Source: Thermoplasmata archaeon (GTDB taxonomy: Archaea > Thermoplasmatota > Thermoplasmata > Methanomassiliicoccales > Methanomethylophilaceae). From it: a DNA stretch of 64,000 nt. Position 1 is the stretch's first letter, and every line of letters begins with the position of its first letter. The stretch covers positions 106,791 through 170,790 of the forward strand of contig SUTA01000001.1 of the NCBI GenBank assembly GCA_015063135.1. The letters are read 5' to 3'. Below are positions 3,185-6,663 of the stretch, piece by piece. The position numbers and the translations under genes are program-made. Under the pieces are notes generated by a model, which saw only the letters and a list, made by a program, of their open reading frames with translations, searched no databases and was not told the origin of the DNA.

Positions 3185-4417
3185 ATGAACACCAAAATCG
3201 TTGCAGTGGCCCTCGTGGCCATCCTGGTCGTCGCCGGTGTCGCCGTTTTCTTCGCATTCGGAGGGAAAGGCGGCAACAGCGAGGACAAGGGACTCAGCAT
3301 CGTCGGTCGCGTCAACTCCGAGGGATCGGGAATCCTCCTGGACCCCTCGCAGAACGTGGACGACTACATGACCATCACTGACGAGCCCATGCTCGGCTCC
3401 TACTCCATCTACAACAAGTCCGAGGACAAGTACTACAACCTCCACGCCAACGGATGGGGCGGCAAGATCTTCGCCACTCCCGGCACAGCGACAATCCAGC
3501 ACGTCCAGCTGATGACGCTGGCATACGGGATGAACCTCAAATGCGTGGCCTACACCGAGGGCGCCACCCTCAAGGCGGACACCCTGTACTACGTCCCCAG
3601 CATCGCATCCTTCGCTGACTTCGTCAACGCCCAGAAGAACACCAACCTCGCCGGATTCATCATCTGGGAGGCCCAGTACTCCGTCGGAGTCGTCAAGGGC
3701 TACACCGGCCTCGTGACCACCAACAGCATCTTCGAGGACCACACCTGCTGCATCATCGGAGCCACCAACAAGTACCTCAACCACAACGAGGAGGCATTCG
3801 TCTCCTTCCTGAGCGTCTACATCAACGCCGTCGACAGGATCAACGCGGCCCTGGCCGACAAGTCCTCCGCCGACTACACCCAGCTCGTCTCCATCGCCAT
3901 GAACAGGGTCACCATGCCCGACGGCATGACCGAGGACGAGAAGAGGCAGGCGATCATCAGCGCCCTTGACAACGTCACATACGTCTACGCCGACAACTCC
4001 TCCGGTTCCCTGAAGAACCTGCAGGCTGACATCGCGGTCCTCGCCGAGAGCCTGTACGAGGTCGGCGCCGTCGAGAAGTCCGCCAAGGACCTCGGGTTCG
4101 ACAGCTACGAGGCCCTTGCCAGCAAGTTCGTCAAGGACTATTACATCAAGGAAGCGCTGCAGATCAACGACGGCAAGCAGGATGCGAAGACCGTCATCAA
4201 CGTCGCCGCCATCAAGGGAGACATACACCAGATCGCCCTGTGGTTCGCCAAGGACACCGGGATGTTCGACGCCAAGAACCTGGACGTCAAGATCTCCCAG
4301 CAGGTCAACGGACCCGGCATCTACACCCAGCTGGCCAACGGAGAGTCCGACATCGGATTCCTCGGAGCGCCCCCGATGACCATCAGGAGCATGAACGCCG
4401 AGCAGATCAAGGCCTGA
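3185..4417 (+). CDS. NitT/TauT-type ABC transporter substrate-binding protein, circularly permuted
   Basis: N-terminal signal anchor; second-lobe motif GGKIFATPGTATIQHVQLM precedes first-lobe motif IKGDIHQIALWFAKDTGMFDAKNLDVKISQQVNGPGIYTQLANGESDIGFLGAPP at the C-terminus. Confidence 0.8.
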   Translation: MNTKIVAVALVAILVVAGVAVFFAFGGKGGNSEDKGLSIVGRVNSEGSGILLDPSQNVDDYMTITDEPMLGSYSIYNKSEDKYYNLHANGWGGKIFATPGTATIQHVQLMTLAYGMNLKCVAYTEGATLKADTLYYVPSIASFADFVNAQKNTNLAGFIIWEAQYSVGVVKGYTGLVTTNSIFEDHTCCIIGATNKYLNHNEEAFVSFLSVYINAVDRINAALADKSSADYTQLVSIAMNRVTMPDGMTEDEKRQAIISALDNVTYVYADNSSGSLKNLQADIAVLAESLYEVGAVEKSAKDLGFDSYEALASKFVKDYYIKEALQINDGKQDAKTVINVAAIKGDIHQIALWFAKDTGMFDAKNLDVKISQQVNGPGIYTQLANGESDIGFLGAPPMTIRSMNAEQIKA

Positions 4418-4455: not shown

Positions 4456-5262
4456 ATGCATCTGTTCAAGTTCGATGAGAACAACCGCAGGGACCGCATA
4501 CTGCGCATGGCGCTCATAGTGGCGGTCTCCCTGCTGACATTCCTGGTGGTGTGGTGGATCGTCACCATACTGCTGGACAACGTCAACTTCCCGACGCCGG
4601 ACAGGGTCTTCGAGGCCCTTTACAACCTCATCGTCTACGGCGACAGAATGGGCGGGCACTCCCTCTGGGAGTACCTGGCGACCAGCCTCGCCACCTTCAT
4701 CGAGGGGTTCCTCATGGCTATAGTGGTAGCAATCCCGCTCGGCCTGCTCCTCGGCTACATCAAACCCGTAAGGGAGTTCATCACGCCCTGGATCGAGGTG
4801 CTCCGCCCCATCGCGCCCATCGCGTGGGCTCCCATCTTCATCATCTCCTTCGGCTCGGCCATGGGATCCGCCCTGGTAGTGTTCGTTGGAATCGTCTTCC
4901 CTCTGCTGACGAGCATCATCTTCGGCGTGCAGAGGATAGACAAGAACTGGCTGGACGCCTCCAAGACCCTGGGGGCCAGCCAGGGGCAGATCTTCTGCAA
5001 GGTTGTCCTGCCCGCGACCGTCCCGTACATCCTGAACGGTATGAAGGTCGGACTCGGGATCGGCTGGATGTGCATCGTAGCAGCCGAGATGTACAAGAGG
5101 ACCGGGGGCATCGGGCAGTTCCTCGTCGATGCTGTGAACAACGGACAGATGTCGACGGCCTTCGCGATCATCATAGTGATAGCCGTGCTCGGAATACTGA
5201 CCACGGGAGTGGCCGAGTACGTGAGCAAGTACGTTTCACGCAGAATGGGGTTGGACGCATGA
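4456..5262 (+). CDS. ABC transporter permease (NitT/TauT family)
   Basis: Multiple TM helices; EVLRPIAPIAWAPIFIISFGSA and DASKTLGASQGQIFCKVVLPATVPYILNGMKVGLGIGWMCIVAAEM motifs. Confidence 0.88.
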   Translation: MHLFKFDENNRRDRILRMALIVAVSLLTFLVVWWIVTILLDNVNFPTPDRVFEALYNLIVYGDRMGGHSLWEYLATSLATFIEGFLMAIVVAIPLGLLLGYIKPVREFITPWIEVLRPIAPIAWAPIFIISFGSAMGSALVVFVGIVFPLLTSIIFGVQRIDKNWLDASKTLGASQGQIFCKVVLPATVPYILNGMKVGLGIGWMCIVAAEMYKRTGGIGQFLVDAVNNGQMSTAFAIIIVIAVLGILTTGVAEYVSKYVSRRMGLDA

Positions 5263-6113
5263 GCGAGGAGATAGTCATCAAAGGGAAGAGGTTCAGTTCG
5301 GCGGACAGGGTCCGTGCGGACCGCACCGACAAGCTCTACGAGCACATCCCCGAGGGGGAGCCCCTCGTCAAGATCGAGAACCTGAACGTGACGTACCGCA
5401 CCGACGAGAAGACCACGGTGGCCGTGGACAACCTGTCCTTCAACATAATGAAGGGGGAGCTCGTCGCTATAGTAGGCCCCTCCGGATGCGGGAAGTCCAC
5501 CATCCTCAGGTGCATCTCCGGGCTGCTGCAGCCCACGTCCGGCACCATCATGATCGGCGACAAGGAGTGCACCACCGCGGGATCGGACAGGGGTATGGTC
5601 TTCCAGGACTTCGCCCTGTTCCCCTGGAGGTCGGTCAGGCAGAACGTGGAGTTCGGCCTGGAGATCGCAGGGGTTCCGAAGGAGGAGCGTCACGAGAGGT
5701 CCGAGAGGTACCTCAAGGCCATGGGCCTGCAGGAGTTCGCCGATGCCAGGGTGCACGAGCTATCCGGTGGCATGAAGCAGAGGGTGGGCATCGCCAGGGC
5801 GATGATCATGCACCCCGCGGTGATCCTCATGGATGAGCCCTTCGGCGCTCTCGATGCGCAGACCAGGAACATCCTTCAGGAGAGCCTGGTGAAGGTACTG
5901 AAGAACTCGCCGAGGACCATCGTCTTCGTCACCCACTCGGTGGACGAGGCCCTGTACCTGGCAGACCGCGTGCTGATCCTCTCCAAGAGGCCGGCCACGA
6001 TACACGCCATCCTGGAGGTTCCCGGGGAACGCCCGCGCGAGAGGACGTCGCCAGAGTTCATCCAGATGAGGCAGGAGATCCTCAGCTATCTCCAGTCGCA
6101 GAACACGCTGCGA
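5259..6113 (+). CDS. ABC transporter ATP-binding protein (NitT/TauT family); ends at CGA 6111-6113
   Basis: GPSGCGKST, LSGGMKQRVGIARA, DEPFGALDAQT; ATGA overlap with permease; CGA followed by hairpin at 6132-6148. Confidence 0.85.
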
Positions 6114-6131
6114 TTCGCTAACGTTTTTCAT

Positions 6132-6148
6132 GGGGCCCTCAGGGCCCC
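6132..6148 (+). terminator. Hairpin ggggccctcaggggcccc-like after ABC ATPase
   Basis: GGGGCCC-TCA-GGGCCCC inverted repeat 18 nt after the CGA. Confidence 0.45.
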
Positions 6149-6206
6149 GTTCTCCCTTCTATACGTCTCCTTTAACTACGCATACCCCGATTCCGTCCCG
6201 ATAACC

Positions 6207-6533
6207 ATGTCCGACGAATGCACGATCACCGTGATGGCTGGCGTATGCGCCATGACCACCAAAATCCACGCCAAGATGAACGACGACATGTCCGTCACCC
6301 TTGAGATCGAGACCGACTGCCCCCAGATCAAGAAGGGGCTGGAGGCCGAGCCCATACCCGTGGGGATGCCCTGGGACGAGGTCGGGACCCCTATGATCGA
6401 GTCCGGCATCTACAAATGGGCCTCCGAGCACCTCAGGCACACCGCCTGCCCCGTTCCCTGCTGCGTCATCAAGGCGATCGAGGCTGCCGGCGGGCTGGGG
6501 CTGAAGAAGGACCCCGTGATAAAGATAGAGCGA
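6207..6533 (+). CDS. Small conserved methanogen protein (DUF6951-like); ends at CGA 6531-6533
   Basis: MSDECTITVMAGVCAMTTKIHAK...HTACPVPCCVIKAIEAAGGLGLKKDPVIKIE; normally a stand-alone protein by recall. Confidence 0.6.
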
Positions 6534-6663
6534 GCGTCTAGCACCATCATGCCAGCCCCCTCCAGGCCGCCAGATGCACCGATCGTTGCCTGGACGGCGC
6601 CCTTTCGAATATCCAGCAAAAACCCTTTTTTATATCCTATATTCTAACCGACCTCCGATTGCC

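Follow-up and report, generated by a model that had tools for sequence, protein, structure and literature searches.

Natural circular permutation is usually deduced from two distant end states. Among binding proteins of ABC transporters, the permuted Type I protein TpMglB-2 (Tp0684) of Treponema pallidum carries its first three strands at the C-terminus; the designation 'Type Ic / Cluster Bc' was proposed for it, together with a tie between the permutation and the tethering of the protein (PMC4990184). Permutation between members of the family of glycine-betaine-binding proteins was revealed from structures with CPSARST (PMC2395249). Tandem intermediates have been documented for DNA methyltransferases, and saposin/swaposin is also a case of permutation by duplication (PMC3320104). 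The SsuA/TauA/THI5-like substrate-binding proteins (SBPs; Pfam NMT1 and NMT1_2, NCBIfam SsuA_fam) are canonical in order.

The gene considered here lies in the window, the whole analysed stretch of 64,000 nucleotides. It can be regarded with high confidence as encoding a permuted SBP of a three-gene NitT/TauT (SsuA/TauA) type ABC importer of a Methanomethylophilaceae methanogen (UBA71-like, judging by its relatives), in which the canonical first ~75 residues stand after the canonical C-terminus, the anchor has stayed in place and the relatives have been repeatedly re-permuted. Like TpMglB-2, it is a tethered ABC-type SBP in which the three leading strands of the first lobe have become C-terminal; TpMglB-2 still folds and binds its ligand, and the fold of the window SBP is predicted. 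Unlike TpMglB-2, a Type I sugar-binding protein with one permuted form described, the window SBP is SsuA/TauA-like (predicted Type II), and its homology to SsuA/TauA places it outside the Type I (Cluster B) fold; besides, its family was cut at several different places, includes fused dimers and reverted once to canonical order. The glycine-betaine binders are likewise a natural circular permutation among binding-protein relatives, but they share less than 24% identity and were detected by structure, whereas the proteins described here are orthologues from one operon, many of them 35–75% identical, within a family. DNA methyltransferases and saposin/swaposin also comprise permutants plus tandem-duplicated intermediates; what distinguishes the present case is four single-copy orders with tandem intermediates across related archaea, the operon being unchanged. 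A literature search, thin on subscription journals, found no reports of permuted binding proteins in archaea or of this SBP family. Permuted binding proteins are thus already known; what appears to be new is a series of such changes, repeated and in part reversed, in a single orthologous operon.

The open reading frame, delineated with the circular profile and an AlphaFold2 model, occupies positions 3185–4417 of the plus strand and encodes 410 amino acids in what is called here arrangement A (anchor, M, C, N); its extent is the one given in the preliminary description. The hydrophobic N-terminal helix (residues 1–24, 3185–3256), supported by a model helix at 3–24 and by Kyte-Doolittle analysis, is a signal anchor or signal peptide. 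After this helix and a short linker, the mature chain opens with GLSIVGRVNSEGSGILL at residue 36. Block M (residues 36–150, 3290–3634), first in the mature chain, corresponds to the canonical structure from β4 onward, according to the strands from 37–44 onward and the alignment to canonical relatives. Block C (residues 151–327, 3635–4165), recognised by the Pfam NMT1_2 match and by invariant residues, comprises the canonical second lobe and C-terminal helices; W161 and an H-x-C-C sequence (186–189) sit in it. A linker (residues 328–335, 4166–4189), located by the best rotation start at residue 329, leads from the canonical C-terminus to the canonical N-terminus. It is followed by block N (residues 336–408, 4190–4408), the canonical β1-α1-β2-α2-β3-α3 portion, now C-terminal, assigned from the models and NCBIfam SsuA_fam and carrying the GDIHQ and GAPP motifs. 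The chain ends with the block ...INVAAIKGDIHQIALWFAKD...DIGFLGAPPMTIRSMNAEQIKA, and the last three strands of the model are 336–343, 366–373 and 390–394. A permease gene (4456–5262, BPD_transp_1, TauC/NtrB/SsuC-like; Pfam 5.6e-23, NCBIfam TauC 2.4e-40, below its cut-off) and an ATPase gene (5259–6110, ABC_tran 3.7e-37) follow directly, as had been noted, both on the same strand.

The displacement of the usual N-terminal motif to the end of the chain, which the preliminary description had proposed, was recovered with external profiles. The GDIHQxALW...GFLGAPP motif occupies residues 345–397 of 410, and the N-terminus of the SsuA_fam profile (positions 8–64 of 290) aligns with residues 346–400, a weak match (E 0.0015) below the cut-off of the model. 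The C-terminal part of Pfam NMT1_2 (PF13379, positions 169–244 of 252) matches residues 151–225 with 29.5 bits against a cut-off of 24.7, so that the curated cut-off is passed only over these residues; as also proposed, canonically downstream sequence comes first in the mature chain. Canonical-order relatives match NMT1_2 over nearly its full length. It is because block N stands at the C-terminus that the standard profiles match the window protein piecewise.

The claim that joining the C-terminus to the mature start restores the usual order was borne out by a rotation scan, in which every rotation of the mature chain was compared with a profile made solely from other arrangements. The native order scored 105 bits and the rotation from residue 329 scored 166 bits; the optimum was confined to 325–337 (within 2 bits), i.e., to the linker ahead of the motif. 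The median rotation reached 106 bits and the best of 200 shuffles 4 bits. A canonical profile of three sequences had lacked the power to resolve the window protein because of the insert of this family in block M, and the larger profile worked; with the relatives L032 and L047, rotation brought no full-length gain, owing to an insert. On a doubled circular profile, the window SBP spans exactly one unit (model positions 84–447). Searching the PDB by sequence with the window SBP gave no match. External profiles, circular profile and rotation scan all support a circularly permuted ABC binding protein: since the block that is N-terminal in NMT1/SsuA-TauA SBPs is C-terminal here, the window SBP is, as judged from its sequence, a variant with permuted order and not a standard member of that class.

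Structure prediction, which the preliminary description had suggested as a check, was carried out on the native order with AlphaFold2 and 27 same-order sequences. The model reached pLDDT 91.2 and pTM 0.86, with values of 91–98 for the displaced block. Foldseek, which retains sequence order, found no match of this model in the PDB at E ≤ 1e-3; the best match was SsuA with E 3.9e-3, TM 0.45 and rmsd 7.9. In contrast, the model of L046, a canonical-order relative from genome G002, gave 1107 matches at E ≤ 1e-3, SsuA and TauA being on top (1e-12, TM 0.79), although it is the less confident model (pLDDT 79.4). This contrast is what is expected under circular permutation. The series of helices and strands agree after rotation, window residues 336–404 corresponding to L046 residues 34–102 and window residues from 37 onward to L046 residues from 118 onward. 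Residues D346, H348, Q349, N44, G47, S48, Q105, W161, H186, C188 and C189 are 95–100% conserved in 129 units of any order. The permuted chain is predicted to still adopt the usual two-lobed clamp and can therefore be presumed to bind its ligand and to engage the permease in the manner of a normal binding protein. The invariant H-x-C-C sequence (3740–3751) aligns weakly (12 bits) with yeast THI5 from residue 196 on, where that protein is rich in Cys, and is possibly a ligand- or metal-binding site.

A search for the same permutation in relatives, the other check suggested, recovered arrangement A in 82 genes, which together represent nearly every genome of the family, at 25–100% identity and with reading frame, anchor and stop intact. 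The permutation is thus family-wide, judging by these genes, and goes beyond the window gene alone. The closest A relatives belong to genomes G009, G019, G011 and G007 (55–58% identity). The permease and ATPase genes follow the SBP gene in nearly all relatives whose contig extends that far. A few divergent paralogues have permease and ATPase on the opposite strand, as seen for L053, L054 and L055 (G004, G018 and G001), a divergent second A-type paralogue with 25–31% identity. Close pairs compared by the Nei-Gojobori method gave dN/dS of about 0.04–0.37 in each arrangement tested, including the two halves of a fused gene, which indicates that the arrangement-A genes are under purifying selection. 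Since, in addition, AlphaFold2 models the native order with confidence, the window gene, earlier called likely functional, is very probably so.

Mapping of the relatives onto the doubled circular profile, with a unit of 365 positions, distinguished four single-copy orders, A, B1, B2 and canonical, each spanning one full unit of ~365 positions and starting at profile positions 84, 212–214, about 168 and 1, respectively. The order B1 occurs in G027, G001, G029, G018, G025, G068 and G074. The order B2 was found in 29 genes, which come from different families of the order or from elsewhere in the class, and the canonical order in G002 of the same genus, in G047 and G052 of the order and in G200 of the class. 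All orders are present in single-contig genomes (A in G007 and G014, B1 in G068, B2 in G187 and others, canonical in G047), as is a fused form (G030). External matches follow the orders: NMT1_2 positions 4–103 align with residues 187–295 of a B1 protein, positions 151–240 with residues 33–123 of a B2 protein, and positions 22–242 span the copy junction of a fused protein. Every cut falls in a predicted loop. In the window SBP, the site matching the B2 cut, where the B2 relatives begin at about model position 168, is a loop at about residues 127–132 (3563–3580); the site matching the B1 cut is a loop at about residues 170–172 (3692–3700), between helix 164–170 and strand 174–178, and the B1 relatives start at model positions 212–214 and end at 574–577. 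The N-terminal hydrophobic helix is kept in every arrangement, with Kyte-Doolittle 19-mer values of 2.8–3.3 in one or two representatives of each.

The fused genes L037, L041, L042 and L044 encode 766–793 amino acids with two complete A units each and were found in four genomes of the same genus (G030, G003, G013 and G012). Their halves are 66–82% identical in DNA, and the halves of the G030 gene are mosaic, windows ranging from 53 to 100%, a pattern that gene conversion would leave. Two binding domains in one chain are also known from the tandem domains of GlnPQ (PDB 6h30, a weak Foldseek hit); unlike in GlnPQ, both fused units are permuted here and close relatives hold single permuted copies. 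Several extra residues at the former A termini, resembling the linker of the fused genes, are present in the B1 genes and in the canonical gene of G002 and are lacking in the order-level canonical genes. The A-type SBP gene L144 (3348–4898, G118) was considered as a partial duplication and rejected; its C-terminal extension (GTVTDADGAPVADKEVTF...) is an unrelated domain resembling a carboxypeptidase-regulatory-like/Cna-B beta domain. A B2-type gene of G049 (L160, 2590–3769) is broken by an apparent frameshift in a metagenome-assembled genome (MAG).

Phylogenetic trees of the SBP were built on rotated units with alignments of about 365 columns. In these trees the B1 genes lie deep within the A clade, as does the canonical gene of G002, and the B1 genes of G068 and G074 form a sister group to the window's own A group, separate from the other B1 genes. 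In the independent tree of permease and ATPase, G002 falls within the B1 group, where its B1 neighbour is L048 (91% identity), G068 stands next to the group of the window, and both B1 groups lie within A. The minimum number of order changes over five states was 6 on the SBP tree and 7 on the permease and ATPase tree. Both trees nest B1 twice and the canonical order once in A, and they therefore suggest repeated re-permutation, in which B1 would have arisen twice from A and one lineage would have returned to the canonical order. The order-level canonical genes stand next to or within B2, which is widespread in the class; rooting and outgroup are weak at this level. The history would comprise an ancient B2/canonical stage and then A in the family; from A, B1 would have arisen on two occasions, and a single gene would have reverted to canonical.

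Each change of order probably passed through an in-frame tandem duplication and fusion, giving anchor-M-C-N-M-C-N. The order B1 (C-N-M) would then result if M was lost behind the anchor and the second copy was truncated, and the canonical order (N-M-C) from deletion of M-C and the last N from the fused dimer. Permutation by duplication is suggested because fused dimers exist, halves are mosaic and linker scars lie at former termini; each permutant is one full unit. Overall, it is likely that one orthologous SBP was re-permuted at least four times in one archaeal lineage via gene-converting fused dimers, including two independent acquisitions of B1 and one reversion to the ancestral order, the anchor always being re-attached N-terminally. 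The rotation itself may have been selected, by shifting where the anchor meets the two lobes.

Other explanations of the unusual order have to be considered. The window genome is a MAG of 40 contigs, 87% complete, and the gene might be a misassembled ordinary binding-protein gene or a broken one. There is next to no chance of this, since the same order is kept in many independent genomes, those of single contigs G007 and G014 included, which excludes misassembly; the intact frames, the conserved operon and the low dN/dS also argue against it, and for arrangement A the artefact reading is refuted. The number of changes could be overestimated if the canonical G002 gene and the B1 genes were old paralogues or horizontally acquired, leaving only two or three changes of order. 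Single-gene trees of short proteins may mislead, canonical-order genes are known elsewhere in the order (G047 and G052), and the canonical G002 gene is one gene from a MAG that is 61% complete. This alternative is nevertheless very improbable: the permease and ATPase tree agrees with the SBP trees, and G002 and B1 have in common an insert at the point that was the joint in A as well as, in block M, the insert specific to the family. The means of the rearrangement could also have been fission and fusion, or a cut-and-paste event that carried the opening ~75 residues to the 3' end, in place of tandem duplication. No half-truncated intermediates were seen among the relatives examined, and internal rearrangement is required under any model because the anchor stayed N-terminal. 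Against such a course speak the in-frame tandem dimers of the four same-genus genomes, which occur beside permuted single copies, and the location of the inserts at former termini; split genes with separate halves were not met in the loci examined. It is therefore considered unlikely, and permutation through tandem duplication is preferred.

The nature of the ligand is less certain. The best named profiles for the SBP family are SsuA/TauA, and the operon partners, an ABC ATPase and a permease whose best match in NCBIfam, though below the cut-off, makes it TauC/NtrB-like, fit the NMT1/SsuA-TauA class; by these profile matches, the window SBP serves as the binding component of an importer of the SsuA/TauA type, with homologous sequence, the same predicted fold and the same type of permease and ATPase. 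Methanogens import coenzyme M (CoM) through ssuABC (PMC10658910, PMC12068725), Methanosarcina acetivorans has CoM-specific ssuA/ssuC (PMC12068725), and several rumen Methanomassiliicoccales are without CoM synthesis (PMC10658910, PMC5011839). The window genome contains mcrA, and ComA, ComB, sulfopyruvate decarboxylase (ComDE) and above-cut-off MMP16 were not found in it (87% complete). In G016, an apparent CoM-synthesis operon with genes for a fused ComDE, cysteate synthase, MMP16 and an Fe-S protein lies directly upstream of the permuted SBP gene on the same strand (L078, 8052–12273). A remnant of sulfopyruvate decarboxylase (beta half) is located just upstream of the SBP gene in the single-contig genome G014 (L045, 5290–5870), with an in-frame TAG where G016 has Gln; decay is likely there, and an alternative reading is a pyrrolysine codon. 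In other genomes that keep CoM genes, these are not adjacent to the SBP gene. It seems that CoM or a closely related organosulfonate is the best guess for the ligand and has somewhat better than even chances, given CoM physiology, the CoM genes not found in the window genome, the G016 operon and the G014 remnant.

A different ligand, e.g., taurine, another organosulfonate, a thiamine-pyrimidine-like compound or a metal complex, is only a little less probable. The mcrA gene was not found in the class-level B2 genomes, nor in G052, and the wider family is therefore not CoM-specific throughout; the weak alignment of the invariant H-x-C-C with THI5 also counts for a different ligand. The order-level neighbours (radical SAM/Elp3, thioredoxin, thioredoxin-reductase-like and TPR proteins) gave no clue to the ligand. 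The ramA and CobW-like genes and a His-rich gene near the importer in the window hint at a corrinoid or metal ligand, which is kept as a rival reading only, because beyond this family neither ramA nor CobW-like genes lie close to the operon. The linkage of a complete CoM-synthesis operon in G016 and of the remnant in G014, together with the SsuA/TauA profiles, speaks for CoM or a related sulfonate. If the transporter is a true CoM importer, it would be an essential nutrient gate for rumen and gut methane producers unable to make CoM.

Here, close relatives with an unchanged operon show the end states, an independent second instance of one cut, a reversal and intermediates in fused form, and the path is therefore directly testable with laboratory constructs. 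The SBP series constitutes an unusually clear natural record of protein ends shifting while the fold is kept. A protein search of the window genome returned the window SBP gene as the sole match, and a search with NMT1_2 found nothing at threshold, which makes a permuted gene easily missed. The permuted importer has probably been missed or misannotated in gut methanogens.

Some further features of the locus deserve mention. No stop interrupts the ATPase frame at the position where its relatives terminate (...SQNTL/M); the frame stays open to position 6647, continuing in frame across the intergenic region into a DUF6951 gene (6207–6647). This read-through (5259–6647) is either a real stop loss with fusion or a base error. 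Upstream of the SBP gene, the window contains genes for a CobW/HypB-like GTPase (123–710), a protein rich in His and Cys that contains the runs HEHEHHHH and CHCHDH (707–1264) and the ramA corrinoid activase (1327–2958). Many genomes of the family also have the GTPase and ramA genes close to the importer, frequently encoded on the other strand.
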